A stretch of 64,000 nt of DNA. It comes from Alcanivorax sp. REN37 (GTDB lineage: Bacteria; Pseudomonadota; Gammaproteobacteria; Pseudomonadales; Alcanivoracaceae). Below the pieces are notes generated by a model. It did not search any database and had not been told where the DNA came from. It worked only from the letters and a program-made list of their open reading frames with translations. Positions within the stretch are counted from its first letter, which is position 1. Every line of letters begins with the position of its first letter. Below are positions 33,370-62,616 of the stretch, one piece after another. The stretch spans positions 1,612,001-1,676,000 of the forward strand of contig NZ_JBGCUO010000001.1 in NCBI RefSeq assembly GCF_041102775.1, given 5' to 3'. Position numbers and translations under genes: made by a program.

Positions 33370-35742
33370 TTACTTGCCGTGCTTCTCAGCCAGGTAGAAC
33401 CAAGTGCCGAGAACCGAGTCCGGATTCAATGACACGCTGGAAATACCCTGCTCCATCAGCCACTTGGCCAGATCCGGGTGGTCGGAAGGACCTTGGCCGC
33501 AGATACCGATGTACTTACCGGCATCGTTACAGGCTTGGATCGCCATGGACAGCAGCTTCTTGACCGCCGGATCGCGCTCATCGAACAGATGGCTGACGAT
33601 GCCGGAGTCACGGTCCAGGCCCAGAGTGAGCTGGGTCAGATCGTTGGAGCCGATGGAAAAGCCGTCGAAGTGCTGCAGGAAGTCGTCCGCCAGCAACGCG
33701 TTGGTGGGTAGCTCGCACATCATGATAATGCGCAGACCGTTGTCACCTCGCTTAAGGCCGTTTTTCGACAGCAACTCGATGACGGTTTCCGCTTCGCCCA
33801 CGGTGCGCACGAACGGCACCATGACTTCAACGTTGGTGAAGCCCATTTCGTCACGGACTTTCTTCAGTGCGCGGCATTCGAGTTCGAAGCAGTCACGGAA
33901 GTTTTCCGACACATAACGGGAGGCACCGCGGAAGCCCAGCATCGGGTTTTCTTCTTCCGGCTCGTAGTGCTTACCGCCGATCAGGTTGGCGTACTCGTTG
34001 GACTTGAAGTCCGACATCCGCACGATGACCTTCTCCGGGTGGAACGCTGCAGCCAGCGTAGAAATACCTTCCACCAGCTTCTCGATGTAGAAATCCACCG
34101 GTGACGTGTAGCCGGCAATACGCTTATCGATGGTCTGCTGCAGATCACGGGATTGGCTGTCGTAGTTCAACAGTGCTTTCGGGTGCACGCCGATCATGCG
34201 GTTGATGATGAACTCAAGGCGAGCAAGGCCCACACCCTGGTTCGGCAGCGTGGCGAAATCGAAGGCGCGGTCCGGGTTACCAACGTTCATCATGATCTTG
34301 AACGGCAGTTTCGGCATCGACTCGATGGAGTTGCGCTGGATCTCGAAGTCCAGTTGGCCTTCGTAGATCTTACCGGTGTCACCTTCGGCACAGGACGCGG
34401 TGACCAGTTGGCCGTCTTGGAGGATCTCGGTGGCGTCGCCGCAACCAACGATCGCCGGCACACCCAATTCACGGGCGATAATGGCCGCGTGGCAGGTACG
34501 GCCGCCACGGTTGGTGATGATGGCCGCGGCACGCTTCATGACCGGTTCCCAATCCGGGTCGGTCATGTCGGTGACCAGCACGTCGCCGTCCTGCACCTTT
34601 TCCATTTCTTTGATGCTGCTGACCACCCGCACCGGACCGGCGCCGATGCGCTGGCCGATGGCGCGGCCTTCAACCAGCACTTTGCCGCGCTGCTTGAGGT
34701 TGTAGCGTTCCATCACCGACACGTCGGAGCGGCTCTTCACGGTCTCCGGGCGCGCCTGCACGATGTACAGTTTGCCGTCGTCACCGTCGAGCGCCCACTC
34801 GATGTCCATCGGGCCACCGTAGTGCTTTTCGATTTCGATGGCCTGGCGCGCCAGATCTTCCACCTGGGCGTCGGTCAGCGAGAAGCGGTAGCGCTCATCG
34901 CGCTCTACCTCTACCACCTGCACTGATTTGCCGGCGCTGGCTTCGCTGCCGTAGATCATCTTCTGCAGCTTGGAGCCGATGGTGCGGCGCAGGATCGACG
35001 GCCGCTTGTTCAGCAGCGTCTTCTTGTGCACGTAGAATTCGTCAGGGTTCACGGCGCCCTGCACCACCATTTCACCGAGGCCGTAAGACGAGGTGATGAA
35101 TACCACATCGCGGAAGCCAGACTCGGTATCAAGGGTGAACATCACCCCGGCGGCGCCGGTTTCTGAGCGCACCATGCGCTGGATGCCGGCTGACAGCGCC
35201 ACACCTGCGTGCTCGAAGCCCTGGTGTACGCGGTAGCTGATGGCACGGTCGTTGAACAGGGATGCAAAGACCTCCTTCACCGCAACCAGCACGTTGTCCA
35301 CGCCGCGGATGTTGAGGAAGGTCTCTTGTTGGCCGGCGAAGGACGCGTCCGGCAGGTCTTCCGCGGTGGCGGAGGAGCGCACTGCTACAGCCAGATCGGC
35401 ATTGCCTTCGCTGATTTGAGCAAACGCATCGCGGATCTGCTGCTCGAGCTCCGGCTGGAGCGGGGCTTCAACCACCCAACGGCGGATTTCGGCACCGGTC
35501 TCGGCCAGCGCGACCACATCATTGACGTCGAGCTTGTCGAGCGCGTCATTGATCTTGCGGGTCAGGTCATTGTGGTTGAGGAAATCACGGTAGGCTTCAG
35601 CAGTCGTGGCAAACCCACCCGGTACGGATACACCGGCGGCCGCCAAGTTGCTGATCATTTCGCCCAAGGAGGCGTTCTTGCCCCCGACCGTTTCAACATC
35701 GCCTTTACCGAGGCGTTCAAACCAGACTACGTACTCCGCCAA
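33370..35742 (-). CDS. ppsA: Phosphoenolpyruvate synthase
   Basis: A 790-residue enzyme that makes phosphoenolpyruvate from pyruvate and ATP for gluconeogenesis. The ATP-grasp-like N-domain opens [11 protein letters not shown]. The swivelling phosphohistidine domain carries H418 in [11 protein letters not shown], and T416 beside it is the residue that PpsR-type kinases phosphorylate. The C-terminal barrel has [15 protein letters not shown]. Length equals the family norm. Two ppsR-type genes are divergent from it, the classical arrangement for its regulator. Confidence 0.97.
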
Positions 35743-35979
35743 GGTCTTGCTCCCTACATGACTGGAATATGAATGGGTGGAATGCGGGGTAGTCTACTGA
35801 AAACCCCGGCCGTTTTCTCGCCCGATTTGCCTTGAGGTTGCGAATCCTAACCAATGCGCTTCGCTGAGGCGAGTGCCCGGCTCCCTTTACTTGCCCGCAA
35901 TCGGTGGCGACACTAGGCCCCATTCACTGCTCCGGCCTGCGGCCGGATGCCCGCCACCGCTGGCCAAGAGCTGTATTTG

Positions 35980-36807
35980 ATGGACCGACGCGTCGCCTTT
36001 TTTGTCTCCGATGGCACCGGCTTGACCGCTGAAACACTCGGTAACGCCATGCTCAGCCAATTCCAAGGCGTCGAGTTCGACACCATGACGCTGCCTTATA
36101 TCCTCTCGGAGGACGCCACCCGCCAAGCCATCGCCAAGATCAACGAGGCTGCGGACCGCTACGGCAACTGCCCGATCGTGTTCTCAAGCTTGGTGGACCG
36201 GGGTCACCGCGACCTACTCGGGCGCAGCCGCGCCGTGATTCTGGACGTGTTCCAGGCGTTCATGGGGCCGCTAGAGCAGGAATTAGGCGTGCGTTCGAGC
36301 CTCAAGGTTGGCCAGAGCCATGCTATCCACGACCCCGAGGCCTACCGGTTGCGCATCGAGGCCGTGCATTTCGCGCTCGACAACGACGACGGTGTGGGTT
36401 GGCGTCACCATTACGAAAAGGCCGACTTAATCCTGGTCGGGCTGCCGCAAGCCGGCAAGACGCCGACCAGCCTCTACTTAGCACTTCAATACGGCCTGTT
36501 CGTGGCCAACTACCCGCTCACCGAGCAGGACATCGAAGACGCCAGCCTGCCGGAGGTACTGGTGCCGTTCCAAGACAAGCTATTTGGTCTGTCGATGGAT
36601 CCGTACCGGCTAGCACTGGCACGACAAGAATTGGCGGGCGATGACCTGCAGGGCTGCTGCACCGATCACTGCACTCAAGAAACCGAAGCCGCCCGCGCGC
36701 TGTTCGAGTTCAACCAGCTCCCCAATATGGACGTCACCAAGATGTCCGTGGAAGAAATCTCCACCCGCATCCTGGCCCTCACCGGGCTCAAGCGCCGGCT
36801 GCAGTGA
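35980..36807 (+). CDS. PpsR-type regulatory kinase/phosphorylase, diverged copy
   Basis: About 275 residues of the DUF299 family, which phosphorylates (ADP-dependent) and dephosphorylates (Pi-dependent) a threonine of PEP synthase. The N-terminal motif FVSDGTGLTAE is canonical. The P-loop reads GLPQAGKTPT (154-163), where canonical copies have GVSR-x-GKTPT. The C-terminal SRYAS/QC segment is replaced by a cysteine-rich CCTDHCTQE. It is 6 nt ahead of a second, more canonical copy. The ATG at 35980 is chosen by family alignment, and an in-frame ATG at 35947 has no ribosome site. Confidence 0.85.
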   Translation: MDRRVAFFVSDGTGLTAETLGNAMLSQFQGVEFDTMTLPYILSEDATRQAIAKINEAADRYGNCPIVFSSLVDRGHRDLLGRSRAVILDVFQAFMGPLEQELGVRSSLKVGQSHAIHDPEAYRLRIEAVHFALDNDDGVGWRHHYEKADLILVGLPQAGKTPTSLYLALQYGLFVANYPLTEQDIEDASLPEVLVPFQDKLFGLSMDPYRLALARQELAGDDLQGCCTDHCTQETEAARALFEFNQLPNMDVTKMSVEEISTRILALTGLKRRLQ

Positions 36808-36813
36808 GGCACC

Positions 36814-37647
36814 ATGACCCCGTCTAAACCCGTCCGTACCGCCTTTTATGTCTCAGGTAGCACCGCCATTACCGCGGAAACGCTGGGACGCTCGATGCTG
36901 ACCCAGTTTTCCGAGTACAACTTCCGCCAGGTGACGCTGCCCTACTTGCAGAACCCTGCCCAGATTGAAGCGGCGGTACTGCGCATCAAGCTGGCAGCGG
37001 AGGAAGACGGTAGTCGCCCGATCGTGTTCTCGACGCTGACCGATCCGCTGTTGTTGAAAGAGTTGCGCCGCAGTGAGGCGCTGGTACTCGACCTGTTCGA
37101 TGCTTTCCTGGTGCCACTGGAACGCGAAATTGGCCAGCCACCGACGCTGAAGAGCGGTCAGAGCCACGCGGTGCGCGACCTCAACAGTTACCGCATTCGC
37201 GCCGATGCGGTCCACTTTGCCATGCAGAACGATGATGGTGCCCGCACTACCTATTACGACCAAGCCGACCTGATCGTAATTGGCGTGTCCCGTAGCGGTA
37301 AGACGCCGACCTGCCTTTATATGGCGATGCAATACGGCCTTTATATGGCCAACTACCCACTCACCGAAGAAGACTTCGACGACCTGCGACTGCCCAAAAG
37401 CCTGCTACCGCACCAACACAAGTTGTTTGCGCTCACCATTGGCGCTGACCGGTTAGAAGAGATTCGTCAGCAACGCCGCGGCGGCAGTCGCTACGCTTCG
37501 CGCCAACAGTGCGACATGGAAGTGCGGGCGTTCGGGGCGCTGATCTCGCGCTTCCAAATCCCGTCGCTGGAAGTGACCGAGTATTCGATCGAGGAAATCT
37601 CCTCACGTATCCTTGCCAAGACCGGCCTGCGCCGCCGCCTGTTCTGA
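36814..37647 (+). CDS. ppsR: PEP synthase regulatory protein PpsR
   Basis: A 277-residue DUF299 protein. The P-loop GVSRSGKTPT (157-166), the signatures YPLTEEDFDDLRLP, KLFALTI and SRYASRQQC, and the ending SSRILAKTGLR are canonical. The N-terminal nucleotide motif, however, reads FYVSGSTAITAE where the family has S-D-G-T. It is directly behind the other copy (6-nt gap), in one operon divergent from ppsA. By its P-loop and C-terminus this is the more likely active regulator. Confidence 0.9.
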   Translation: MTPSKPVRTAFYVSGSTAITAETLGRSMLTQFSEYNFRQVTLPYLQNPAQIEAAVLRIKLAAEEDGSRPIVFSTLTDPLLLKELRRSEALVLDLFDAFLVPLEREIGQPPTLKSGQSHAVRDLNSYRIRADAVHFAMQNDDGARTTYYDQADLIVIGVSRSGKTPTCLYMAMQYGLYMANYPLTEEDFDDLRLPKSLLPHQHKLFALTIGADRLEEIRQQRRGGSRYASRQQCDMEVRAFGALISRFQIPSLEVTEYSIEEISSRILAKTGLRRRLF

Positions 37648-44156: not shown

Positions 44157-45795
44157 GTGCGTCTCCAGCGACAAAAGGAATGTCCTCCGGGCGCACTTCA
44201 GACTCGAAGCTCTTGCGATAGGAGAACAGATACATTTGCAGATCCTGCTGCACCCAGCGATACGGATAAGAGGGCATCGGCATGTGATCGACAAACAGCG
44301 CCCGCCGCTCTGACGGATTGAAGTCCGGCTTGCCGAAACGCAGATAACTGAACATACGTTCGCCGTTGTGCTGAATGAACACCTGGCCATTGAGCATGTA
44401 ATGGAATACCAGATAGGTGACGCCGGGGTAGCCCACCGTCACGTGCGCAGGGATCTGCGCCGGATCAAGGAAGTAATAAAGCGCCGGATCGTACACCACT
44501 AACTGGTCAATGCCGGAGTCTGCAGCAAGCATCTGGTGAATGGTGTCGGCCATCGCCCTATTGCTGTCCATGTAGGCCGGCAGATAGCTAGGAAACACCC
44601 GCTCCCAGTCACCGCGATAAAGCCGCTCAACCAACCAGCCCGGCCCTTTTTCCTTCATTGCCACATGGACGGCGGTGATGCTGAGAAAATGAGACAGCTG
44701 GAGTAACAACACCAGTAGTGTGAGCGCGGCGACATAAACGGTTCTGCGAAGGCGCCAACGGGAGGCCAGCCAGTCCAATGCCGCCGCCAGCCCCAGCAGT
44801 AATAGCGGATACAGGATAAATAAGTAACGCGGCTCATAATAAGCCAGCTGCAGCGCTACTTGTGCGAGCAGGAATATCACCCACAACAGCGCGCCGGCCA
44901 CCATTGTCCGCAGCGGTGCCAGCACTTTCAGGGCGCAAGCGGGTAGCGCCAATGCCAGCAACAGGAATGAATAAGGGAACGTTTCCCACGCGTACCCGGC
45001 GTTGTATTCGATGCGGCCGAGAATCTCGCGTAGCTCCAGACGCCAGTGGCCGAAGTCACCGATGTCCGGCATTACCGCCAGCAAGAACAATAAATAGAGC
45101 ACACCGGGCGCCAAACATAGGGCTGTCAGTGCCCATGAGCGTTTCATCAACCGGAACAGCACGTAAGGAATAACGAAGAAAATACCTTCCGGCCGGATCA
45201 GCGGCATTGCTCCGAGCAACAGCGCCGCCGCTTTATGATGGCCGTGGGCCTGACTCCAGATCGTCAGGACCAGTATTAGGCCCAGCCACACTTCACCGTA
45301 GAAGCTGAGGCTAACCAGCACGAACAACGGCACGCTGCCGACCACCGCCACAGCTGCCCGCACCGCGCCCCGACGCAGCCCCAAGCGGTAGCCAGTCGAG
45401 ACCAGCAACGCCAGCGCGGTTACTGCTAAACCAGCATGCACCAGACGGGAGGTCAGCAGCTCACCGCCGGCCACAATGATGGTCAGATGTTCCAGTAGCA
45501 GGAACAGTGGCAGTGCGAAGTTGTAGTACTGCATGTCCAGCGAGCGCCAGGCCGCACGCGCGAGGAAGAAGCGGTAGGCGTCGTCACCGTAGAAGATATT
45601 GGCGCCGTCGATAAGGTCGAGCAGCCACCAACGCTCAGGACCGCTCACCCACCACGCCACGGTGAGGTAACAAACAAGAAGGGCGGCAAGGAGTATTGCC
45701 GCCCACTTTTCTTTGCGAAGAAACCGACCCACTGCCACCCCGCTACTCTTGGTCACTGCTGTGACACGTTTAGTGCCGTCAGCAGAACTTGGCAT
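44122..45795 (-). CDS. GT-C-like multi-pass membrane protein (glycosyltransferase)
   Basis: About 557 residues with some ten or more predicted membrane helices and a C-terminal extracytoplasmic domain. After helix 1 comes LIDGANIFYGDDAYRFFLARAAW, an acidic loop of the kind that forms the active site of lipid-linked-sugar GT-C enzymes. YYEPRYLFILYPLLLLGLAAALDWLA marks the mid region. Such enzymes move a sugar from undecaprenyl phosphate to an acceptor at the periplasmic face. Its start lies inside the 3' end of the preceding FilA-like gene, so it is coupled to it. Acceptor unknown. Confidence 0.72.
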   Translation of the reverse strand: MPSSADGTKRVTAVTKSSGVAVGRFLRKEKWAAILLAALLVCYLTVAWWVSGPERWWLLDLIDGANIFYGDDAYRFFLARAAWRSLDMQYYNFALPLFLLLEHLTIIVAGGELLTSRLVHAGLAVTALALLVSTGYRLGLRRGAVRAAVAVVGSVPLFVLVSLSFYGEVWLGLILVLTIWSQAHGHHKAAALLLGAMPLIRPEGIFFVIPYVLFRLMKRSWALTALCLAPGVLYLLFLLAVMPDIGDFGHWRLELREILGRIEYNAGYAWETFPYSFLLLALALPACALKVLAPLRTMVAGALLWVIFLLAQVALQLAYYEPRYLFILYPLLLLGLAAALDWLASRWRLRRTVYVAALTLLVLLLQLSHFLSITAVHVAMKEKGPGWLVERLYRGDWERVFPSYLPAYMDSNRAMADTIHQMLAADSGIDQLVVYDPALYYFLDPAQIPAHVTVGYPGVTYLVFHYMLNGQVFIQHNGERMFSYLRFGKPDFNPSERRALFVDHMPMPSYPYRWVQQDLQMYLFSYRKSFESEVRPEDIPFVAGDALEALQRGRLPD

Positions 45796-47104
45796 TGCCC
45801 CAACAGTTGGGGGCAAAGTTTTGCGCCGACAAACGCAGATCTGACAGCGGCATATCCAAATAATTGGCGGGATTGCTGAAATAGTTGGTCAAGTCAATGG
45901 TGCCCACATTGAGTGTGGTGCCGGTTAGACAACTAAGCAGGCCGCATTCTGGCGGGTTGGCGGCCAGCACATCGCTGATCGGCTGGACCAGTTGTTTTAG
46001 CACGTCGTCGGTGATTTTGATCGGATCTGATGGGGACACATCTCCGATATTGATCGGATCTTCAAATGCCAGCCACCAACCACGCTCTGCAGCGGCGGCA
46101 GCTCCAGGCCACTGAAGTGTCTGACTCTGCATAGACAATGAGAACGGGTTACTGACACCGATTTTGTGGATGTAGCCCAAGCTTTCGGAGAACTGCACGG
46201 CAGCTTTAACCCCCTTTACCTGCCCGACTACCCCTTCAGTCAACGTTATATTACCCAGCGGCGTGCCAGCAGCTACTGCCGTCAGACATGCGTTATTCAT
46301 GCCTGAGGGACATGCAATACCGATATTGCCCACGGTCGCCGTGGCGTTGAGCTCCACTGCAGTAAGTCGATTGCCAGATACCACTGTAGGTGCCGTGGTG
46401 AAGTGGGCCTGTGCCGGGTTCACTTGGACAGTGTAGTCGGTGGAAGTGAAGTCATAAGTGCCTTTCAAACCAAAGGCGTAGCTCACGATCACCCGCCCCG
46501 TCAGCGCCATATTGGTATCCGCATAGGTCATATTCCGGCGCTCGGTCATCCCGGTACCGGACACCGACTCCAGTTCCAGATAGCCACTCAAGGTGTTAAT
46601 GCCGTTAGGGGTAGCAGAGTTCTCGATCCCGAACGTCATCATGCCATCCGCCTGCTCAGCGCTGAGGCGGAAGCCGACAATCTCACGCAGCCCGGTATCC
46701 ACGCTTTCGTTAATCGCAAACTCAAAAAATGGCCGCGTCAGCACCGCCGAACAACCCGGCCGGCCACTGGTGCAATTACCGCTAAGTCCAAGATTATCGA
46801 TGTCGATATCGCAGCCTGGGCCATTCACACCGCCACAGCCGAGCTGCAGCTTGGCGATGTTGAGGTTCAGGTCCACCGCTGCATCGAGTCCCACTTTGTA
46901 GAAGTTGAGGCCGGATGAAATGCCCTGCCCCGGGCGCGAGTCCATCATCAGCAGCGCTTGGCCGGTGACGTCACCGAGCTGCTCATCGCTAAGTGCGGTC
47001 ATGCCGCTGTAATCGGGGGGGGCAGCGTGAGCAGCCAGCCCCAAGCCACTGCTTAGCAGCAGACACAGGAACAACTGAAAAACTCGGATTGAGAGATTTT
47101 TCAT
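45779..47104 (-). CDS. Exported FilA-like protein, cysteine-paired
   Basis: A 441-residue exported protein. The signal peptide ends near LAAHA. Residues 35-49 carry the family motif MTALSDEQLGDVTGQ. The rest is beta-rich with at least five close cysteine pairs (GCGGVNGPGC, NCTSGRPGC, ACPSGMNNAC, ECGLLSC, NCWGNAKFC), pointing to disulfides outside the cytoplasm. Its start is 3 nt after the stop of the gene before it, with no ribosome site of its own. The glycosyltransferase start lies inside its 3' end. The family is probably FilA/DUF6160, function unknown. Confidence 0.72.
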   Translation of the reverse strand: MKNLSIRVFQLFLCLLLSSGLGLAAHAAPPDYSGMTALSDEQLGDVTGQALLMMDSRPGQGISSGLNFYKVGLDAAVDLNLNIAKLQLGCGGVNGPGCDIDIDNLGLSGNCTSGRPGCSAVLTRPFFEFAINESVDTGLREIVGFRLSAEQADGMMTFGIENSATPNGINTLSGYLELESVSGTGMTERRNMTYADTNMALTGRVIVSYAFGLKGTYDFTSTDYTVQVNPAQAHFTTAPTVVSGNRLTAVELNATATVGNIGIACPSGMNNACLTAVAAGTPLGNITLTEGVVGQVKGVKAAVQFSESLGYIHKIGVSNPFSLSMQSQTLQWPGAAAAAERGWWLAFEDPINIGDVSPSDPIKITDDVLKQLVQPISDVLAANPPECGLLSCLTGTTLNVGTIDLTNYFSNPANYLDMPLSDLRLSAQNFAPNCWGNAKFC

Positions 47105-49356: not shown

Positions 49357-49707
49357 TTACAAAGGGTAACGACGCGCACTGTCGTCCGCACTGGACACTG
49401 CGCTAATGGGCGTAGCGTTATACCAGCGGGCGAAGTCTTGCCACTCGGGGTTATGGAGGCTAATCAAGGCCAGCAACTGGGCATCCGTCAGGCGCTGCAA
49501 TGCCCTTTCCCGTGCATAGGCTTGGTAAGCGTAGGGATACAGCTCCACCAACAACAACCGATGGCACACCCAAAAGGTCTGCGCCGGCCGCTGGATGCGC
49601 CGGCGCGCGCGTTGCAGGCAACGCTCCAAATCGGTGGTAACACTGATGAAAAAGCGGCAGCTGCCGATGTTGGCCAGCACATACACGAAATAGCCCTTTC
49701 GCATCAT
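49357..49707 (-). CDS. Degenerate GIY-YIG domain protein
   Basis: A 116-residue protein of the small YhbQ/UPF0213-like GIY-YIG type. The GIY part is YFVYVLANIG, but the YIG part reads FFISVTTDLERC, losing the glycine. The catalytic-type glutamate (ARERALQRLT) and the C-terminal signature SLHNPEWQDFARWY are present. Nuclease activity is doubtful. The ATG at 49707 has AAGGAG 6 nt before it, so the longer frame to 49767 is not needed. Confidence 0.7.
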   Translation of the reverse strand: MMRKGYFVYVLANIGSCRFFISVTTDLERCLQRARRRIQRPAQTFWVCHRLLLVELYPYAYQAYARERALQRLTDAQLLALISLHNPEWQDFARWYNATPISAVSSADDSARRYPL

Positions 49708-49847
49708 GGCGATCTCCTTGAACATAGTTCGGTTCCTTCCAAAGCGATCACCATAACCACTCAACAACAGGAATAAAGTAGGATAACCCCCATACGCGCA
49801 AAGACTCAGATCAGGGTCATCAATGCCTTGCCCGGCTGCTCCGGCAA

Positions 49848-49892: not shown

Positions 49893-51077
49893 TCAGAAAC
49901 TACCATCGGGTACCCGCACCACACCTTCCATAATGATGCGCGCGCTGCGGCTCATGATCGCCTTGGTCACGCGCCATTGGCCGTTTTCTTGCACTGCTTC
50001 AGCGCCAACCCGTAGGGTGCCGGACGGATGGCCGAAGCGGACCGCAGAACGGGCGTCGCCGCCGGCAGCCAGATTCACCAGGGTGCCGGGGATCGCTGCT
50101 GCGGTGCCGATGGCCACCGCAGCGGTGCCCATCATGGCGTGATGAAGCTTGCCCATCGACAGTGCACGTACCAGCAGATCAATGTCTGCTGCCGTCACCG
50201 TCTTGCCACTGGAGGTGGTGTAGTCAGTGGGCGGCGCCACAAACGCCACTTTCGGCGTGTGCTGCCGAGTCAGTGCTTCGTCCGGGGTTTTGATCAGTCC
50301 CATTTTCAGCGCGCCGGCAACGCGAATGCGCTCCAGCTTGGCCAGCGCGGCGGCATCGCTGTTGATGTCGTCACGCAACTCGGTACCGGTGTAACCGATA
50401 TCCGCCGCATTAACGAACACCGTGGGAATGCCGGCGCTGATCAGCGTTGCTTGCAGGGTGCCAAGCTCCGGCACCTCCAGCTCGTCCACCAAGTTGCCGG
50501 TGGGGAACATGGCGCCATCGTCACCGTCGTCGGATGGATCAAGGAACTCCAGCACGATCTCAGCGGCCGGGAAGGTCACGCCATCAAGCTCGAAATCGCC
50601 GATTTCCTGCACCTGACCATTGGCCACCGGTACCCGGGCAATGATGGTTTTCTGGATATTAGCCTGCCAGATCCGGACTTCGCAGATGCCGTTATCCGGC
50701 ACGCGGGCCGGATCCACCAATCCAGCATGCAGCGCGAAGGCCCCCGCGCCGGTGGACAGGTTGCCGCAGTTGCCGCTCCAGTCGACAAACGGCTTGTCGA
50801 TCGACACTTGGCCATACAGATAGTCCACGTCATGGCCCGGCTGGCTGCTTTTGGACAGGATCACACACTTACTGGTGCTGGACGTGGCCCCGCCCATGCC
50901 GTCGATGTGCGCCGCGTAAGGATCGGGACTGCCGATCACGCGCATGAACAGACGGTCGCGGGCTTCACCCGGCACTTGGCAAGATACTGGCAGATCCTGC
51001 AGGCGGAAAAACACGCCCTTGCTGGTGCCGCCGCGCAGGTAGGTGGCGGGAATCTTGATTTGCGGGGCGAAAGCCAT
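49893..51077 (-). CDS. prpF: 2-methylaconitate cis-trans isomerase PrpF
   Basis: A 394-residue diaminopimelate-epimerase-fold enzyme that converts the trans-2-methylaconitate made by AcnD to the cis form. Signatures include IPATYLRGGTSKGVFF, a proton-shuttling cysteine in GNCGNLSTGAGAFAL, and PTVFVNAADIGYTG. It is the last gene of the methylcitrate operon, after acnD, as in Shewanella and Pseudomonas-type clusters. Confidence 0.95.
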   Translation of the reverse strand: MAFAPQIKIPATYLRGGTSKGVFFRLQDLPVSCQVPGEARDRLFMRVIGSPDPYAAHIDGMGGATSSTSKCVILSKSSQPGHDVDYLYGQVSIDKPFVDWSGNCGNLSTGAGAFALHAGLVDPARVPDNGICEVRIWQANIQKTIIARVPVANGQVQEIGDFELDGVTFPAAEIVLEFLDPSDDGDDGAMFPTGNLVDELEVPELGTLQATLISAGIPTVFVNAADIGYTGTELRDDINSDAAALAKLERIRVAGALKMGLIKTPDEALTRQHTPKVAFVAPPTDYTTSSGKTVTAADIDLLVRALSMGKLHHAMMGTAAVAIGTAAAIPGTLVNLAAGGDARSAVRFGHPSGTLRVGAEAVQENGQWRVTKAIMSRSARIIMEGVVRVPDGSF

Positions 51078-51100
51078 GTGCGCACTCCTGAGAAATTAGG

Positions 51101-51183
51101 GGCCCGGCAAAACGCCGGGCCGGATTCAAGCGGTGCAGGGCTAGGCCCTGCGGGCAGGACGCTACGGCCTTGTGGGCCGTAGC
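51101..51183. repeat. Three consecutive hairpins between acnD and prpF
   Basis: Three perfect stems in 83 nt: GGCCCGGC/GCCGGGCC (51101-51121), GCAGGGC/GCCCTGC (51135-51151) and GCTACGGCC/GGCCGTAGC (51161-51183). None has a T-run. They could stabilise the upstream mRNA or reduce prpF expression. Confidence 0.7.
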
Positions 51184-51196
51184 GCCGGCCAACCCA

Positions 51197-53800
51197 TCAA
51201 CCTCCTGATTCGAGGAAGTCCTGGGCAAAGCGTTGCAGCACACCACCGGCCTCGTAGATCGAGACTTCTTCAGCAGCGTCGAGACGGCAGATCACCGGCA
51301 CTTCGGTTGACTCGCCGTTGCGGCGATGGATCACCAGCGTCAGTTCTGCACCCGGATTCCGTGTGCCGACTACGTCGAAGGTTTCGGTGCCGTCGATGCC
51401 CAGCGTTTCGCGAGTGGTGCCCGGCTTGAACTCACAGGGCAGTACACCCATGCCGATCAGGTTGGTACGGTGGATGCGCTCAAAGCCCTCGGCCACGATC
51501 ACTTCCACGCCAGCCAGCCGAACGCCTTTGGCAGCCCAGTCACGGGATGAACCCTGACCGTAGTCGGCACCAGCAATGATGATCAGGTTTTGGCCACGAT
51601 CCATGTAGGTTTCAATTGCTTCCCACATGCGCAGCACAGTACCGTCCGGCTCGACCCGGGCCAGTGAGCCCTGGCGCACGCTGCCGTCATCGTTGCGCAC
51701 CATTTCGTTGAACAGCTTCGGGTTGGCGAAGGTGGCGCGCTGGGCGGTCAGGTGATCGCCGCGGTGGGTGGCGTAGGAGTTGAAGTCCTCCTCCGGCAAG
51801 CCCATTTTCGCCAGATATTCGCCGGCCGCGCTGTCCAGCAGGATGGCGTTAGACGGTGACAGGTGATCGGTGGTGATGTTGTCACCCAGCACCGCCAGTG
51901 GGCGCATGCCTTTGAGCGTGCGCTCGCCGGCCAGCGCCCCTTCCCAGTACGGCGGACGGCGGATGTAGGTGGACATCGGACGCCAGTCGTACAGCGGCGA
52001 CACTTGTTTGGCGGCTTTCTCGCGGCCTTCAAACATCGGGATGTACACCTGCCGGAACTGCTCCGGCTTCACCGCCTTGGCCACCAGCTGGTCGATTTCC
52101 GCATCGCTGGGCCAGATGTCTTTGAGGCGGATTTCCTTGCCATCTACAACTGCCAGCACGTCCTGCTCAATATCGAAGCGGATGGTGCCGGCAATGGCGT
52201 AGGCCACCACCAACGGCGGCGATGCCAGGAACGCCTGCTTAGCGTAGGGATGAATACGGCCATCGAAATTGCGGTTACCGGACAGCACCGCCGTAGCGTA
52301 CAGATCGCGCTCGATGATTTCCTGCTGGATGTGCGGCTCAAGCGCGCCGGACATGCCGTTGCAAGAGGTGCACGCATAGGCCACCACGTCAAAGCCCAGC
52401 GCCTGCAAGTCGCCCATCAAACCGGCTTCTTCCAGGTACAGGGTGACGGCCTTAGAGCCAGGCGCCAGCGACGTTTTTACCCACGGCTTGCGCACCAGAC
52501 CGAGGCGGTTGGCGTTGCGCGCCAGTAGCGCCGCGGCAATTACGTTGCGCGGGTTGGAGGTGTTAGTGCAGCTGGTGATGGCGGCAATAATCACCGCGCC
52601 ATCCGGCATCAGTCCTTCCGCTTCTTGGGCTTGCGCTTTATCGAGGTCTACGGCAATGCCGCGTTCTTTCAGCGCTGCCACCGGCAGCCGACGGTGCGGG
52701 TTCGACGGGCCAGCCAAGGTGCGCTCAACCTTAGACAGGTCAAAGCTCAGCACCCGCTCATAGCGCACGTTTTCAAGACTGTCGGCCCACAGGCCAGCGG
52801 TCTTGGCATAGCTTTCCACCAACGCCACGTTGTCTTCTTCACGGCCGGTCAGGCGCAGGTAGTCCAGCGTCTGGTCGTCGATGAAGAACATCGCCGCGGT
52901 GGCGCCGTATTCGGGGGCCATGTTGGAGATCGTCGCGCGGTCGCCGATAGTCAGGCTGCGAGCGCCCTCACCGTAGAACTCCAGGTAGGCACCGACCACT
53001 TTCTCTTGGCGCAGGAATTCGGTCAGGCTCAGCACCACGTCGGTGGCGGTGATGCCTTCATGCCGGTGACCGGTCAACTTGACGCCGACGATTTCCGGCA
53101 GTCGCATCCAGGAGGCGCGGCCGAGCATTACGTTCTCAGCTTCCAGACCGCCGACGCCCACTGCGATCACACCCAACGCATCCACGTGCGGGGTGTGCGA
53201 GTCGGTACCGACACAGGTATCCGGGAACGCCACGCCGTCTTTGGCATGGATCACCGGCGACATCTTCTCCAGGTTGATCTGGTGCATGATGCCGTTACCA
53301 GCTGGGATCACGTCGACGTTGTCGAACGCATCCTTGGTCCACTCAATGAAGTGGAAGCGGTCTTCGTTGCGGCGGTCTTCAATTTCGCGGTTCTTCTCGA
53401 ACGCGTCTGGAATATAGCCACCGCACTCCACTGCCAGCGAGTGGTCGACGATCAGCTGCACCGGCACTACCGGGTTCACCGCCGCCGGATCACCGCCCTT
53501 TTCGGCGATGGCATCACGCAGGCCGGCCAGATCCACCAGCGCGGTCTGGCCAAGAATGTCATGGCACACCACCCGCGCCGGGAACCACGGGAAATCGCGT
53601 TCGCGCTTGCGTTCGATCAGCTGTTCCAGACATTCACGGATGATGGCTGGATCAGCTTTGCGCAGGATGTTCTCGGCATGCACCCGCGCGGTGTACGGCA
53701 GCCCATCGAAAGAGCCGGGCTGGATCGCCTCAACAGCTTCACGTACGTCGTAGTACTCGAGCACGCTGCCGGGCAGGGTTTTGCGGTATTGGGTATTCAT
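51197..53800 (-). CDS. acnD: Fe/S-dependent 2-methylcitrate dehydratase AcnD
   Basis: An 867-residue aconitase-family enzyme that dehydrates 2-methylcitrate in the methylcitrate cycle. The cluster cysteines lie in [10 protein letters not shown] and [11 protein letters not shown]. Substrate loops include [13 protein letters not shown] and the C-terminal swivel domain [16 protein letters not shown]. AcnD needs PrpF as a partner, which is present downstream, and this pair replaces PrpD. Length matches the family. Confidence 0.96.
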
Positions 53801-53832
53801 GGAATCAACCTGTCAGAAGAAGGTCGCGATAA

Positions 53833-53869
53833 CGGCAGGCGGCGCCGGGGTCAGCAGCGCCGCCTGCCG
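53833..53869. repeat. 13-bp perfect hairpin between prpC and acnD
   Basis: CGGCAGGCGGCGC/GCGCCGCCTGCCG with an 11-nt loop, 7 nt past the prpC stop. There is no T-run, so it is more likely an mRNA-stability or partial-attenuation element than a full terminator. Confidence 0.7.
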
Positions 53870-53875
53870 CAGCCA

Positions 53876-55003
53876 TCAGCGCGCGGCGATGGGCGCCACA
53901 GTGCGCGGTGCTTCACCAACGTACTCGGCGCTAGGACGGATGATGCGGTTGTCGGCGCGCTGTTCGAACACGTGGGCGGCCCAGCCGGTCAGGCGGCTCA
54001 TGACGAAGATCGGCGTGAACAGCTTGGTCGGGATGCCCATGAAGTGGTACGCAGAGGCGTGGAAGAAGTCCGCGTTGCAGAACAGCTTCTTCTCGCGCCA
54101 CATCACTTCCTCGCAGCGCACCGATACCGGGTACAGCACGGTGTCGCCGACATCGGCGGCCAGTTTCTCGGACCACTGCTTGATGATGGCGTTGCGCGGA
54201 TCAGAGGTGCTGTAGATCGCGTGGCCGAAGCCCATGATCTTTTCCTTGCGCGCCAGCATGCCCATCATTTCCTGCTCGGCGTGATCGGCATCTTTGAAGC
54301 GCTCGATCATGTCCATTGCCGCTTCGTTGGCGCCGCCGTGCAGCGGGCCGCGCAACGAGCCGATGGCACCGGTCACGCAGCTGTGGATGTCAGACAGCGT
54401 GGAGGCACACACCCGGGCGGTGAAGGTGGAGGCGTTGAACTCGTGCTCGGCGTACAGGATCAGCGACACGTTCATCACCTGCTCATGCAACGCGTTCGGC
54501 TTTTCGCCACGCAGCAGGTGCAGGAAGTGGGCACCGATGGAGTCGTCATCGGTGTCGACGTCGATGCGCACGCCATCGTGGCTGTAGCGGTACCAGTAGC
54601 AGATGATCGACGGGAACGCCGCCAGCAGACGGTCAGCCGCATCTTCCTGCTCGGAGAAGTCCTGCTCGGTTTCCAGGTTGCCCAGCATCGAGCAGCCGGT
54701 GCGCATGACGTCCATCGGGTGGGCGGAGGCTGGGATGCGCTCCAGGACTTCCTTCAGCGGCTGCGGCAGCCCGCGCAGGGACTTGAGCTTGGCCTTGTAT
54801 GCATCCAGCTCTGCCTGGGTCGGCAGCGCGCCTTTCAGGATCAGGTGCGCCACTTCCTCGAACTGACAGTTCTCCGCCAGATCCTGCACGTCGTAGCCGC
54901 GATAGGTGAGCCCGGAACCGGACTTGCCCACGGTGGACAAAGCCGTTTTGCCCGCCACCTGGCCGCGCAGGCCTGCACCTGTCAGTTGTTTGCCTTCTGC
55001 CAT
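53876..55003 (-). CDS. prpC: 2-methylcitrate synthase PrpC
   Basis: A 375-residue citrate-synthase-family enzyme that joins propionyl-CoA and oxaloacetate. The citrate synthase site is [15 protein letters not shown], with a second histidine and aspartate region in [14 protein letters not shown]. The short form without the N-terminal extension of GltA and the position between prpB and acnD support methylcitrate synthase. Confidence 0.95.
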
Positions 55004-55079
55004 GATGTGTTCCTCTTATCTGCTGGGACGGTCGCGACCGCCGTGTAGGGTCTACGGGAATTACCCGCAGCCACGCGTG

Positions 55080-55970
55080 TTACGCCTTGCCCTGGGTGAA
55101 CAGTGCGTCGAGCTTCTGTTCGTAGGAGTGGTAATCCAGGAAGTCATAAAGTTCCATGCGGGTTTGCATCAGATCGACCACGTTCTGCTGGTGGCCGTCC
55201 TGGCGAATCGCTTGGTACACGTTCAGCGCGGCTTTGTTCATGGCACGGAAGGCGGACAGCGGATACAGGATCATGTTCGCGCCGGCTGCGGCCAGTTCGT
55301 CACGGGTAAACAAGGGGGTGGCGCCAAACTCGGTGATGTTGGCAAGCAGTGGCGCGCCATCGATGCCTTTGGAGAAGGCTCGATAATCATCAAGAGTGTG
55401 CACCGCTTCAGCAAAGATGCCATCTGCACCTGCGTCGAGGCAGGCCCGTGCACGCTCAATCGCCGCTTCAAGACCTTCCTTTTGGAAGGCGTCAGTGCGG
55501 GCGATGATGAAGAAGTCTGGATCGAAGCGCGCGTCAGCGGCAGCTTTGATCCGATCGGACATTTCCTGTTGGGACACAATTTCTTTGTTCGGGCGGTGGC
55601 CGCAGCGTTTCTGCGCCACTTGGTCTTCCAGGTGCACGGCACCGGCGCCAGCGCGGATCATTTCCTTCACCGAGCGGGCAATATTGAACGCCCCGCCCCA
55701 GCCGGTATCGATGTCCACCAGCAACGGTACTTCGGAGGCGTAGCTGATACGGCGCACATCTTCGAGCACGTCGTTAAGGCTGGTCATGCCGAGGTCCGGC
55801 AGGCCGTAGGAGGCGTTGGCCACGCCGCCGCCGGACAGGTAGATGGCCCGGTAGCCGACCTGTTCGGCCATCATGGCGCAATAGGCGTTGATGGTACCGA
55901 CGATCTGCAGCGGCTGCTCTTCGGCAAGGGCTTTGCGGAAGCGTCCGCCGGCGGTCAGGGTCTGGCTCAT
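55080..55970 (-). CDS. prpB: 2-methylisocitrate lyase PrpB
   Basis: A 296-residue isocitrate-lyase-superfamily enzyme that splits 2-methylisocitrate to pyruvate and succinate. The catalytic cysteine is C123 in [10 protein letters not shown], and the metal site is in [14 protein letters not shown] and VHLEDQV. It is the first metabolic gene after the regulator, 80 nt downstream of it. Confidence 0.96.
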
Positions 55971-56869: not shown

Positions 56870-58840
56870 TTAGGGGCAAGTGGCACCGTACTGCTGCCAC
56901 TCCACGCTGCCCTGCACCGTTGCCAGGCACTCACCGGCTTCGTTGCATTTCAGCTTCTCTGCGTCTTCTTCCGGATCTTGCAGATCCACTGTGTTTTCTT
57001 TCACGAACAGGTCACGGGCGTAAGTATTGCTCCACGCCGCAGCGACTTGGTCTTTGACGCTCTGTTCACTGAGCCGGTACAGCGGCGCGCAGCTGTCGCT
57101 GTAGTCGAAGCGGCCCATCACCTCGGCGCCGTAGTACGGCATGGTTTCGGACACGGTGGCATCACCCGCCATCAGGAAACTGACGAAGGCGCTCTTGGCC
57201 CCGGTGTCACTCTCTTCCACCCGCGCCACATAGCCCACCGGGGTGCCATCAGCCGCAGTTTGCGGGCAACTGCCGTCTGCGCTGGCGTACAGCAGCACGT
57301 GGCGGCCGTTGCTGTCGAGATCCATCAGCAGGCACATCTCGGTCGGCGCACCGGCCGCTTCGGTGATCGGGCCGGGACGATCCTGCTCGAACAGCGGCTG
57401 CTTAGCATCGCCCTCACCCACCTGCGGGTAGTTCTGGTTGTTCTGCGATTCGATTGGCGCACAGCCAAGGCCCTGCTCGGGCTGGTCGTCGTAGCAACCG
57501 CGGCGCAGCGACACCCGGTAATGGGCTGGTAGCGGCATCACTTCCGCTGGCACCAGACCGCTGTCCCCAAACTGGGAGCTGCGCACGGCCATGATCGGCA
57601 AACTGCCGTCTTTGTTAGCGCCCTGCAGGTCGGCGGTCGGCGCACCAAGGAACTGGCCGCTGGCATGGCCGAACTCCTCGGTCTTGAACTTGTGCACGCT
57701 GCGCGGGAACGTCAGCTCGTAATCACGACGGCGGTTGTGCTGCAGGCCGGCAAACATGTAGTCGCCGGTGAAGCGGCCCGCCAATGTCAGGTCGCTGGTA
57801 TCGGTATCGTTCATACGGTCGATACCCAGCAAACGAGCGTCTTGCAGCACCAACGCATCATCGAGGCGGCTACCGCCGTTGATGGCGAGATAACCGTACA
57901 GCAGTGAACTGTCGCCCTGGGCATCTTTCTCCTGGCGCGCGTGGCGCAACAGGCCACTGATCTGGCCGGAGGGCAGCACCAAGGTGTTGCCTTCCAGCAT
58001 CACCATGCGCTGTTCGCCGTCGATCGGATTGATGATGTTGGTGATGAACTGGAACGCCATGTCGAACGAACCGGCACGGGTCATTTCGGTGCCGTAGCTC
58101 AGCCGATCTTCCACTTCCGTAGCCGTCGGGAATTGGTCGTCGCTGTTTAGGTTAGCGCTGTTAGCGGCATCCAGCAGCGGCTGCCAGGCGTCCTGGAACT
58201 CCTGGTAGTCCTCCTGATCCAGCGTCTTGCCCTGCACCAGCGTCTTATATTCGTCGTTGACCAGATCGTGCAGGTCTTCGTGGAGGGTGATGCTGTTGCT
58301 GTCCGCCGGCGCGCTGTCCAGCGCCAGCAGCAAGGCGCCACGGTTGCGCACTTTGGCATTGCTCAGTGGCTCACGCGCTGGAGAGTTAACAATGTCAGCG
58401 ACGGTCAGCTGGACCAGCGTCCAGGCATCATTATTGCCATCGGTCCACACCGCCTTCGACAGTTGCGGCAGTGCTGCCACGCCAAGCGGAATGGTGTTGC
58501 CAGCAAAGGTCCCGTGGCCAAGGTAGAACTCGATCTGGGTGGCATTGGTGGGACACACCGCCGCTCCTGCCGGCAGTGTGCGCGGCCGACCTTCGCTATC
58601 GTCGATGTTTTCATCTTCGCTGCGGATGTAACCCAGCGAGGTGCCGCAGCGGTAACCCACGTTGTAGAGCGTCGGGCCAACAAAGCGCACCAGCACGTCG
58701 CCGACCAACTGCTCCTCACAGATGGCACCGGCCGGGCAGCCCGGCAGTTCGACGTCGGAGAAATCTTCACCGCCGCTGCAGGCGGCAAGGCCGGCAGCCA
58801 GGGTCAGGACGGCTGCTGAGGAGGCCAGCTTTAGATACAT
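56870..58840 (-). CDS. filF: FilF-like outer-membrane lipoprotein
   Basis: A 656-residue lipoprotein with lipobox LAAGLAACSGG at the ATG of 58840 (GGAG 9 nt upstream). The early segment has cysteine pairs (LPGCPAGAICEE) and the later part has RRGCYDDQPEQGLGC. It is largely beta structure with long acidic loops. Genes in this order in Acinetobacter are annotated FilF, a putative pilus assembly protein located in the outer membrane. The role is inferred from gene order and overall layout. It is the last gene of the operon, and the prp operators follow with no clear terminator between. Confidence 0.72.
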   Translation of the reverse strand: MYLKLASSAAVLTLAAGLAACSGGEDFSDVELPGCPAGAICEEQLVGDVLVRFVGPTLYNVGYRCGTSLGYIRSEDENIDDSEGRPRTLPAGAAVCPTNATQIEFYLGHGTFAGNTIPLGVAALPQLSKAVWTDGNNDAWTLVQLTVADIVNSPAREPLSNAKVRNRGALLLALDSAPADSNSITLHEDLHDLVNDEYKTLVQGKTLDQEDYQEFQDAWQPLLDAANSANLNSDDQFPTATEVEDRLSYGTEMTRAGSFDMAFQFITNIINPIDGEQRMVMLEGNTLVLPSGQISGLLRHARQEKDAQGDSSLLYGYLAINGGSRLDDALVLQDARLLGIDRMNDTDTSDLTLAGRFTGDYMFAGLQHNRRRDYELTFPRSVHKFKTEEFGHASGQFLGAPTADLQGANKDGSLPIMAVRSSQFGDSGLVPAEVMPLPAHYRVSLRRGCYDDQPEQGLGCAPIESQNNQNYPQVGEGDAKQPLFEQDRPGPITEAAGAPTEMCLLMDLDSNGRHVLLYASADGSCPQTAADGTPVGYVARVEESDTGAKSAFVSFLMAGDATVSETMPYYGAEVMGRFDYSDSCAPLYRLSEQSVKDQVAAAWSNTYARDLFVKENTVDLQDPEEDAEKLKCNEAGECLATVQGSVEWQQYGATCP

Positions 58841-58887
58841 GTTGTGTGTCTCCAGTGTCCGCGCCAAGGCGGGGACAGTATTCGGGG

Positions 58888-59811
58888 TCAACGGGTGCGC
58901 ACCAACAGTGCGCCCTGCTCGCTCAACGCAGCGTCCTGCTCCGGCACCCACAGCGCCTGTGCCGCAGCGCTGTAGTCAAGGTAGAAAATCAGATAACGGT
59001 GACTCGGCTCGCGGGGCAAAGTTCCCTGTACTGACGCGTAATGGGCCCAGCTTTCCGGGTAGCGACGCGTGAACAGGTTGTTGACCTGCAACACCGGTGT
59101 GCCCTCCCCGTCCAGTACCAGCAGTTGCGGGTGGACGTACTGGCCGCCGCGCTTGAAGCTGACCAGCTCAACGTCCTTCACCTCAGGGGCCAACGCCACC
59201 ACCCGCGCCGGCAACAACCGGTCGCCTTGGCGCAAGAACGGACCTTGGCCAAGGGCGAAACGTAGGCTGTGCTCCTTGCCGGGGCGCAGTAGCGTGGCAC
59301 CCTCGCGCAGGTGCTGGCAACAGTCGGCGCGGATCGGGGTCACGGTTTCGAGGAATTCCTCGCTGTCTGGGGCCTCGATCGCCACATAGGCGGCCGCCCG
59401 CTCACGTCGAGCAGCCTGTGCCGCCGGCACATCAATGCGCTCGCGCTGCAACTGGCCGCTGGCATCGTAGTAAGTAACGAAACGGTCAGACGGGTCATCG
59501 GTTTCTGCGGTACTCCACGCCGCCGCATCCGGTGTGGATTGGGCGCCCGCTGCGGGTTGCCACAGCTCGGCAGCCAACACATCGATGTCGACCGCCTCAG
59601 GCACAGGTGCCGCGGGCTCAGGGCGGGTGGCCGGTACCGGTGCCACCTCAATGTCGGCCGGCGTGGCATCGGCCGCCGTGTTCTTGGCCGGGATTTCGCC
59701 AGTCACCAAGCGGCCGCTGGCATCGGTGTAGGCGTAAAAGCCACCGTCGCGGTCCGGGTTGCTGCACCCGGCCGCCACGGTCAGCACTGCCACCAACGCC
59801 CAGCGCTTCAT
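58888..59811 (-). CDS. filE: FilE-like lipoprotein
   Basis: A 307-residue lipoprotein with lipobox LTVAAGCSN. It has two DUF4124-like repeats, FYAYTDASGRLVTGEI (25-40) and FVTYYDASGQLQRERI (about 110-125), a proline-alanine linker between them, and a beta-rich C-terminal domain (about 180-305) resembling MalM-type periplasmic proteins. The two DASG repeats suggest cell-wall or protein binding. It shares one base with the FilD stop, so translation is coupled. Confidence 0.7.
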   Translation of the reverse strand: MKRWALVAVLTVAAGCSNPDRDGGFYAYTDASGRLVTGEIPAKNTAADATPADIEVAPVPATRPEPAAPVPEAVDIDVLAAELWQPAAGAQSTPDAAAWSTAETDDPSDRFVTYYDASGQLQRERIDVPAAQAARRERAAAYVAIEAPDSEEFLETVTPIRADCCQHLREGATLLRPGKEHSLRFALGQGPFLRQGDRLLPARVVALAPEVKDVELVSFKRGGQYVHPQLLVLDGEGTPVLQVNNLFTRRYPESWAHYASVQGTLPREPSHRYLIFYLDYSAAAQALWVPEQDAALSEQGALLVRTR

Positions 59812-61496
59812 CAGAACCGCGTCCGGTAGGCAAAGCCAAACATGTTGATGGTGGCCTTGGTTTTGATGTCGAGCCCGGCATAGGGGTTGTAGACCATGTT
59901 ATTGATGCCGGTGCAGTTGGCCGAGCAACTGGAATTGGCGGGCACGTGGTCGCGACTTTCCAGCATCGCAAAGGCGAAGTCGAACTCAGTGTCTTCACTC
60001 CAGCGGTAGCCCAAACCGACGCTGTAATAGCGCGCTTCGTTGATCGGCACCATTGGCATGCGCCGGTTGTTGGGGATCGCCGAGGCCCGCGGCTCGAAGC
60101 CGGCACGCAACTTGAGCCGGTCGTTAACGGTGAATTCGGCGCCGAAAGCCAAGTTCCAGGTGGAGCGGAAATTCAACGGGTAGGACAGCGTGTCGGAGGT
60201 GGCCCCGGGCGTGAACAATCGCGCCAGTGCCAGCGCCGCGTTACTGGAATCGAACTCGAAGTTGAACGCATCCCAGGTGCTGTAATCGGTCCACACCGCG
60301 TCCATGTTGAACTGCAGGCGCTCATGGGGCTTCACTTTGATGCCGGTCTGGAAGTGCGCCGGCATCGTGATGTCCATGTTGATGATGCCGGTGTCCTGCA
60401 GGCCCACGTAGTTGGGTACCCCCAGTACCGCCAACGCAATGGCGCCGGTAGGACTGCTGCCGATGCCATTGATGGTTTCGCGGGTGGCGTTGGAATAGGC
60501 AATATTATAGCGACCGCGCATGCGCACTTTGGTCGGCGAATGCCACACCGCGCCCCAGGCGAAGCGATCATTCGGCTCCCACAGAATGCCGAGGTTGTAA
60601 GACGGGCTAAAGCGATCGTCCATGGTCACATCCAAGCTCGCCAGACTCTTGAACGGCCCCAGCCCCTCATTCGGGCGGCAGATGCCGAACAGGATGATGT
60701 CGAGCGCAAAGTTGGACTCGCCGGCAAACGGCGCACAAATGCTTTCACTAACGATGCGCGCAAAACCAAGCAGGTCGTTGGGCGCGCGGAAATCAGTTTC
60801 CAGCCCCACCGCTTGGTAGGAGAAGCCCACCGAGGCGCCGATCGACAGCGTATCGGTGACCTGGTAGCCCACCGATGGCGACAGGTAGGTGAGCCGGTTC
60901 AGCGCCACCCGGCTACCCATGAAGTTACCCGGGTCATTTTTGTCGCGGTAGAAACCGGCCACCATTGGCAGGTAGGTGGCGGTGGCAAAGGTGAACTTGG
61001 ACCCTTCCGGGCGGATCGAGAACGACGGCACCGGTCCGGCAGCCAGTGGCCCCGGCGGCAAGTTGACGAAGTCGTTCACGAACGGCAGGTACAACGACAC
61101 CCCTTCAATGCCGCTCTTGCCGGTGCGGAAGTTCTGGCAGCGATCGCCGGTGCCAGGCGCATCGGCGCACACCACCGGATCATCGGAAAAACCAAATACG
61201 TTGTAGTCCGGCGGCGCCGAGAATTGACTCGACAGGCTTAGATCCACCGCCAGGAACTGCAAGTCCATGCGCCGACCGTCGAGCCGCGCTAGGCCGGCCG
61301 GGTTGAAGTGGATAGACATGATCCCGGGGGGATCCGCGGTCACCGCATTGCCCATGCTCATGGCGCGCACATCGACGCCGATATTGGTGGCCAGTTGTGC
61401 TTGGCTGCCGCCAGCCCATGCCAGCAGCGCGATCAGTGCCCAGCGCCAGCCACGCCGCCGAAGCGGTGTTGAGGTCGTCCTCCCCTGCCCCACCAC
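59811..61496 (-). CDS. filD: FilD-like OmpP1/FadL-family outer-membrane barrel
   Basis: A 561-residue protein of the FadL/OmpP1/TodX family. The signal peptide ends WAGGSQAQ. The hatch start LATNIGVDVRAMSMGNAVTADPPGIMSIHFNPAG is typical. The barrel ends in GFAYRTRF with a terminal phenylalanine. FadL proteins import fatty acids and other hydrophobic substrates, but this one sits in a fil-like operon and may serve export or assembly. GTG 61496 has GGGAG 7 nt upstream, next to the FilC stop. Confidence 0.8.
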   Translation of the reverse strand: MVGQGRTTSTPLRRRGWRWALIALLAWAGGSQAQLATNIGVDVRAMSMGNAVTADPPGIMSIHFNPAGLARLDGRRMDLQFLAVDLSLSSQFSAPPDYNVFGFSDDPVVCADAPGTGDRCQNFRTGKSGIEGVSLYLPFVNDFVNLPPGPLAAGPVPSFSIRPEGSKFTFATATYLPMVAGFYRDKNDPGNFMGSRVALNRLTYLSPSVGYQVTDTLSIGASVGFSYQAVGLETDFRAPNDLLGFARIVSESICAPFAGESNFALDIILFGICRPNEGLGPFKSLASLDVTMDDRFSPSYNLGILWEPNDRFAWGAVWHSPTKVRMRGRYNIAYSNATRETINGIGSSPTGAIALAVLGVPNYVGLQDTGIINMDITMPAHFQTGIKVKPHERLQFNMDAVWTDYSTWDAFNFEFDSSNAALALARLFTPGATSDTLSYPLNFRSTWNLAFGAEFTVNDRLKLRAGFEPRASAIPNNRRMPMVPINEARYYSVGLGYRWSEDTEFDFAFAMLESRDHVPANSSCSANCTGINNMVYNPYAGLDIKTKATINMFGFAYRTRF

Positions 61497-62572: not shown

Positions 62573-62616
62573 GGTCACGTCTCGTTTTAAAGGCCGCAAA
62601 GTGGGTCTGACGCCCA

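Follow-up and report, generated by a model that had tools for sequence, protein, structure and literature searches.

Short-range cysteine pairs and a leader-like motif suggest that an Alcanivorax protein is cargo of the Fil secretion system

Introduction

Among described systems, one close comparison for the locus treated here is the Fap functional-amyloid system of Pseudomonas, whose substrates are exported by Sec. FapD is described as a periplasmic C39 protease with an active-site cysteine essential for the secretion of FapC (PMC5557850), and co-located fapD and fapF homologues are reported in five additional phyla (PMC6173800). The substrate of FapD was called undetermined in papers of 2017 and 2018 (PMC5557850, PMC6173800), and a 2025 review speaks of FapD as thought to process FapE and FapF (PMC12822426). 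Another point of comparison is the fil operon of Acinetobacter: FilF of A. baumannii is described as a putative pilus assembly protein, encoded in one operon together with five further fil genes (PMC4751259), and as over-expressed in pellicles (PMC3203104). Here we analyze P0001, a protein of 441 amino acids encoded at 45779–47104 on the minus strand of a 64,000-nucleotide stretch of the Alcanivorax sp. REN37 genome (the window; all window coordinates below are on that strand unless marked). P0001 has a Sec-type signal, a leader-like motif and five short cysteine pairs, and we argue that it is likely to be cargo of the Fil system encoded nearby, in which FilB resembles FapD and FilC resembles FapF.

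Cysteine pairs

A preliminary description of this DNA had placed five short-range cysteine pairs in one protein at 45779–47104, quoting three as examples. All three are found and the coordinates are exact. The strand, which had been left unstated, is minus (the plus strand in the same frame has 9 stops), and the spacing, given as C-x2-C to C-x8-C, is actually C-x4-C to C-x7-C. Of 11 cysteines in all, the one without a partner sits in the signal peptide (residues 1–27, 47024–47104; type and boundary assigned by eye) and the other ten make up the five mature pairs, which lie 13–147 residues from one another. When ten cysteines were placed at random in the 409-residue mature part, only 13 in 200,000 trials gave five consecutive pairs each at most 8 residues apart, the limit of 8 being the observed maximum. 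Relatives share the pattern too, so that it goes far beyond what chance would give.

The relatives were gathered by protein and profile searches, with P0001 and the window genome counted within the samples. In a close set of 94 genomes, 32 have matches to the P0001 family, as do 40 of the 390 genomes drawn from the order. After identical chains had been merged, 132 loci gave 64 distinct full-length chains (P0001 included) and 16 distinct partial chains, L035 (P0001 itself, cut at a locus end) having been removed from 17. From the 31-row alignment A2 we removed L004, which is the same locus as L031.

The mature cysteine count is even in 62 of the 64 full-length chains and in all 16 partial ones (78 of 80 chains), and the evenness persists when the 64 are thinned at 70% identity (34 of 36) or 50% (20 of 21). 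In the 78 even chains, consecutive cysteines of a pair are a median of 8 and at most 18 residues apart, with a median of 65 between pairs; the two chains with odd counts were excluded here. A spacing of 18 or less, again the observed maximum, thus holds in 78 of 78 chains, against 0.74 of 78 expected by random placement. Since the relatives are not independent, these family figures describe the strength of the pattern and are not formal probabilities.

The individual pairs differ in their reach. Pair 1 (CGGVNGPGC, residues 90/98, 46811–46837) has both cysteines in 59 of the 64 full-length chains and neither in the other 5, and pair 2 (CTSGRPGC, residues 111/118, 46751–46774) has both in one same set of 5 chains. 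Pair 3 (CPSGMNNAC, residues 265/273, 46286–46312) and pair 4 (CGLLSC, residues 387/392, 45929–45946) recur with both cysteines in L002, the closest relative (57% identity over residues 15–441), and are poorly aligned elsewhere. Pair 5 (CWGNAKFC, residues 434/441, 45782–45805) forms the exact C-terminus, and both its columns are cysteine in 64 of 64 chains. The partner columns within pairs 1, 2 and 5, and within two further pairs that P0001 lacks (present in 13 and 30 of the 64 chains), co-occur with a Jaccard index of 1.00. Most of the other 21 cysteine columns fall in the middle region, which aligns poorly. Three of them have four members each and coincide; for the remaining 18, which include P0001 columns 265, 273 and 392, the best-partner Jaccard values are 0.20–0.88. 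Wherever a pair aligns clearly, then, its two cysteines are gained or lost as one.

The chain ends exactly in N-C-x-G-x(3-5)-C in 62 of the 64 full-length chains, the exceptions being L005, with two residues past the last cysteine, and L114, with a longer ring. Of the 16 partial chains, which come from more distant relatives, 8 finish with C-x-G-x(3-6)-C. We know of no described function for the N-C-x-G-x3-5-C ending, no search for one having been made. Distant relatives in the order's other families (L052, L055–L058, L060, L062 and L064) end in a C-x-G-x-C ring, for example TCMGSQAAGC or TCVGRVKGC, and L059, L061, L063 and L066 have a C-terminal RG[KR]GLF with no cysteine there.

The small disulfide loops that the preliminary description proposed are thus strongly supported by conservation: even parity, joint loss of the alignable pairs and short spacing are strong, if indirect, evidence that the pairs form local disulfide rings, a reading we consider well supported. 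The pairs might instead bind a metal or an iron-sulphur cluster, as spacings of C-x4-C to C-x7-C can occur in metal sites. We find this very improbable: P0001 is probably exported, and alignable pairs that come and go one pair at a time, in a protein where they lie so far apart, are unsuited to four-ligand sites.

A leader-like motif shared with FilA

Double-glycine leaders have hydrophobic residues at positions −12, −7 and −4 and glycine at −2. Behind its signal peptide P0001 carries a 12-residue motif, LSDEQLGDVTGQ (residues 38–49, 46958–46993), which fits this consensus at all four positions. The same arrangement, a signal peptide followed by the motif, is common to FilA, to three other proteins of the window (P0002–P0004, located further below) and to the relatives examined. 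The motif pattern is present in 42 of 42 segments, 31 from the P0001 family and 11 from other proteins, with L, M, I or V at −12, Asp at −10 in 36, L or M at −7, V or I at −4 in 39, Gly at −2 in 37, and Gln at −1 in 37 (Ala in 2). The fit is a description, since these same proteins supplied the search pattern.

The 42 segments were also compared with 18,950 NCBIfam models. Matches were to FilA (17 segments), to TIGR03898 mersacidin-type lantibiotics (9), to the TIGR01847 bacteriocin signal (4), to NF038034 and NF033772 (one each; a lactococcin G-type family and a peptide pheromone), and to an unrelated ATP synthase subunit (1). Among these, the bacteriocin and pheromone families have double-glycine leaders. 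Shuffled versions of the 42 segments gave no match in the same scan. In Pfam, 29 segments matched DUF6160, one Mersacidin and one an unrelated family.

Bacteriocin leaders of this type are cut by the C39 domains of ATP-binding-cassette exporters, and the P0001 motif is like them at −12, −7, −4 and −2. It is unlike them in standing behind a Sec-type signal, in proteins of 235–771 amino acids in the window, in usually having Gln at −1, and in being accompanied by a separate, stand-alone peptidase.

P0001 had also been described as FilA-like. What stands of this is the short N-terminal stretch, namely the signal peptide and the LxDxxLxxVxGQ motif that P0001 shares with FilA of the Acinetobacter fil operon (NF050077; DUF6160); even with E values as high as 1 allowed, P0001 itself does not match the NF050077 model. 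Nor is P0001 the FilA of this genome, which is another gene, running past the window end, that scores 145 bits over the whole NF050077 model (below the cut-off of 220) and, unlike P0001, has no cysteines and no CGGxNGxGC or NCxGxxxFC elements. Membership of P0001 in DUF6160 (PF19657) was likewise rejected, at 15.9 bits against a gathering cut-off of 27 and over residues 21–51 only.

The fil operon

The fil operon spans 56870–64472, 10–17 kb from P0001. It includes filA (DUF6160, 277 amino acids), whose 3′ part is at 63639–64000 and which continues past the window (L038:3640-4473). FilB (62617–63429) is a stand-alone C39 peptidase related to FapD, with 66.9 bits to Peptidase_C39 and 114.6 bits to FapD, and NCBIfam already names it a C39 peptidase. 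FilC (61499–62722) is a putative outer-membrane protein with 66.5 bits to FapF, and FilD (59811–61496) is an OmpP1/FadL-type outer-membrane transporter. Against their own models, FilB, FilC and FilD score 316, 374 and 735 bits, covering model positions 1–277 of 277, 67–381 of 384 and 9–549 of 549. The operon further encodes a FilE-like putative lipoprotein (58888–59811; lipoprotein by eye, 20.1 bits to FilE, below cut-off) and, in the FilF position, a putative lipoprotein with no family match (56870–58951; again by eye). Neither a link between Fil and Fap nor a leader for FilB was found in the titles and abstract openings of the papers listed by searches of a literature collection outside subscription journals and preprints, and DUF6160 appeared in one paper of that collection, as a list entry.

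Instead of being cut by FilB, the motif could stay on the protein, serving as a nucleation element or as a recognition helix for docking on FilB or FilC, with FilB acting as a chaperone or cutting FilC or FilE. The prevalence of Gln at −1 agrees with this, whereas FilB has kept two elements, YSCG and HFVV, that we take to be those of active C39 enzymes. The Fap literature points both ways: some C39 relatives are described as purely chaperones and FapD is proposed to cut FapE or FapF (PMC5557850, PMC6173800, PMC12822426), but the active-site cysteine of FapD is reported as essential for FapC secretion (PMC5557850). We regard an uncut motif as a real possibility, though one we would not bet on.

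Co-occurrence with the Fil machinery

Of 93 related genomes, the window genome excluded, 29 have both the P0001 family and FilB, 59 have neither, 2 have only the P0001 family and 3 only FilB. Presence and absence thus agree in 88 of 93 (Fisher 2e-18, kinship uncorrected). FilC gives the same counts, one genome of the three differing. For DUF6160 and FilB, 31 genomes have both, 5 and 1 have one of the two and 56 have neither; this is partly trivial because filA adjoins filB. The FilB and FilC models have no match in 14 control genomes. A strong stand-alone C39 match (E 2.2e-15 or better) is found in all 29 of the profile-positive genomes outside the taxonomic family. None of the P0001 family, FilB, FilC and DUF6160 was found in the 13 genomes of one genus (g3) or in G029, of the same family, as though the system as a unit had been lost or never gained.

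Genome linkage is another way to explain the co-occurrence. P0001 might have its local rings and yet be an ordinary periplasmic or outer-membrane-attached protein that makes no use of FilB or FilC. Its gene is in an operon separate from fil, its export is something we infer, and in the 18 genomes for which the distance was computed, the window's among them, one of the listed P0001 relatives shares a contig with filB, 15.8–25.2 kb away. Two genomes, G014 and G044, have P0001 relatives and no detected FilB or FilC. Three observations tell against this alternative. The leader motif is shared with FilA. A C39 search gave 30 loci, of which 24 have a stand-alone C39 motif; a leader-bearing gene lies within about 1.5 kb in 7 of the 24 (strict filter), in other families too. 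Finally, 14 related genomes have 3–4 matches among those listed (gene pieces counted apart), and 13 of the 14 have FilB. On balance we think an ordinary, Fil-independent protein unlikely.

A proposed export route

The explanation we lean towards is that P0001 is a Sec-exported cargo of Fil, with a motif that FilB would recognise and rings small enough to thread through FilC. In this proposal P0001 would belong to the envelope or the cell surface, and its ten mature cysteines would form five small local disulfide rings in the periplasm, probably by the DsbA system (the genome has 4 DsbA-family matches over cut-off, one of them barely). P0001–P0004, which share the leader, and FilA would be the likely cargo. 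After Sec cleavage each would start with a short double-glycine-type leader (LSDEQLGDVTGQ in P0001), which a periplasmic FilB would recognise and after which it would probably cut; the chain would then pass FilC, which is related to the amyloid exporter FapF. Rings that link only neighbouring cysteines would leave the chain, once oxidised, able to thread a narrow barrel. We grade the parts differently: that P0001 is cargo is likely, that it is extracellular by way of the Fil operon, perhaps with a role in adhesion or in the biofilm matrix, is plausible, and cleavage at Gly-Gln is a testable guess.

The small-ring rule has a parallel. In autotransporter passengers, disulfides are said to be tolerated only between closely spaced cysteines, a rule tied to passage through the barrel (PMC3546941), and a second paper reports mixed results for a disulfide-bonded domain (PMC5802855). 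P0001 is like these passengers in having short-range pairs only; family scans recognise no barrel domain in it, and FilC is a separate protein. The rule would fit export through FilC if, by analogy, what holds for autotransporters may be carried over. P0001 is in part like the Fap proteins and in part unlike them. Close cysteines are found in FapC too, as a conserved CxxC that lies outside its fibre core (PMC6173800); P0001 has several pairs, of C-x4-7-C spacing. Fap proteins are reported as having no canonical C39 sequences (PMC5557850), unlike P0001 with its leader-like motif. A Fap-type amyloid subunit is not supported for P0001, which has no internal repeat by self-BLAST, an N+Q content of 10.4% and no match to a Fap model.

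A number of results weigh against our proposal. Cysteine counts are odd in L008 and in L009 (from G014), and most cysteine columns of the variable middle have no clean partner. AlphaFold2 predictions of the mature chain and of the N-terminal domain, made with three sequences each (from the window, L031 and L032), have a mean predicted local distance difference test score of only 38.8 and 35.6, a level that carries no meaning for the fold, and the long beta protein and rigid element of the preliminary description are conjecture. Amyloid-type repeats and N/Q richness are absent from P0001. At −1, where a double-glycine leader should have Gly or Ala, P0001 and 37 of the 42 segments have Gln, and C39 peptidases are described as usually cutting at GG and sometimes at GA (PMC5557850). 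Matches to double-glycine models are weak, the best of them (E 0.0097) lying below the curated cut-off, and FilB, FilC and FilD fall below the strict NCBI cut-offs of 475, 630 and 970. In G014 and G044, which are draft assemblies (96% and 93% complete), the P0001 relatives are accompanied by weak C39 matches only, in frames of 332 and 336 amino acids, and the general C39 model matches 8 of the 14 control genomes. The co-occurrence of P0001 with FilB is inflated by both kinship and linkage.

More tentatively, with slightly less than even confidence, we propose a general scheme in which Fil is a two-step export system: Sec acts first, and a second leader of double-glycine type is then read by a free periplasmic C39 peptidase ahead of a FapF-like channel, for cargo with small rings only, one family of which has a conserved C-terminal ring. 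If true, this would give the periplasmic C39 class a recognisable substrate, where for its Fap member, FapD, the papers cited above name no experimentally determined one. A protein family with the expected type of leader near such a peptidase makes the question of FapD-class substrates testable with short peptides. The cysteine rule would in turn be a sequence signature for cargo that is oxidised in the periplasm and yet threaded through a narrow outer-membrane channel.

Neighbouring genes and other observations

P0001 is third in the series P0003, P0002, P0001, P0005. P0003 (47812–49086, 424 amino acids) has a leader motif ending in GA and two short cysteine pairs. It overlaps by 4 bp with P0002 (47108–47815, 235 amino acids), the upstream operon neighbour, which has the same leader motif as P0001 and also two short pairs, and a 3-bp gap separates P0002 from P0001. 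Directly after P0001 comes P0005 (44122–45816), a multi-membrane protein (by eye) with weak Alg9-like similarity. P0004 (37710–40025, 771 amino acids) has a P0001-type leader motif and no mature cysteine.

In Alcanivorax profundi (L031) the homologues of P0003, P0002, P0004, P0001 and P0005 are consecutive, at 49, 39, 26, 43 and 40% identity (BLAST), so that the P0004 homologue adjoins that of P0001 and the P0005 homologue directly follows it. Acinetobacter colistiniresistens (L032) has five consecutive leader-bearing genes, of which the P0001 homologue alone matches over its length (36%); matches to the P0003 and P0004 types are weak and partial (E 3e-5 and 2e-5), and leader, size and position are the sole grounds for assigning the P0002 type. 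Across 14 leader-bearing proteins from three genomes, all cysteine counts are even, with spacings of 4–14, and two have no mature cysteine. Six short pairs account for the 12 mature cysteines of the first leader-bearing Acinetobacter protein (L032:5360-7921, 853 amino acids, by a weak match of P0003 type).

A promoter scan at the P0001 locus gave 0 sites against 2.8 expected in shuffles, and a terminator-like stem lies 75 bases beyond the P0001 stop, within the P0005 frame. A search of solved structures with P0001 returned a single match that is not credible (E 1.6), and 80 candidate stretches from a viral collection included no P0001 relative.

Between the fil operon and the P0003–P0001 cluster sit methylcitrate genes (49893–55970), among them prpB by model (55080–55970) and others that we take to be prpC, acnD and prpF; acnD- and prpF-like genes also precede the P0003–P0001-type cluster in A. 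profundi. A frame of 136 amino acids at 49357–49767 looks like a GIY-YIG nuclease by eye; searched up to E 0.01, neither Pfam nor NCBIfam gives a match. Two tandem Kinase-PPPase genes (35947–37647, plus strand), presumably of the phosphoenolpyruvate (PEP) synthase regulatory type, adjoin a PPDK_N/PEP-utiliser enzyme (33370–35742), an apparent duplication of the regulator.

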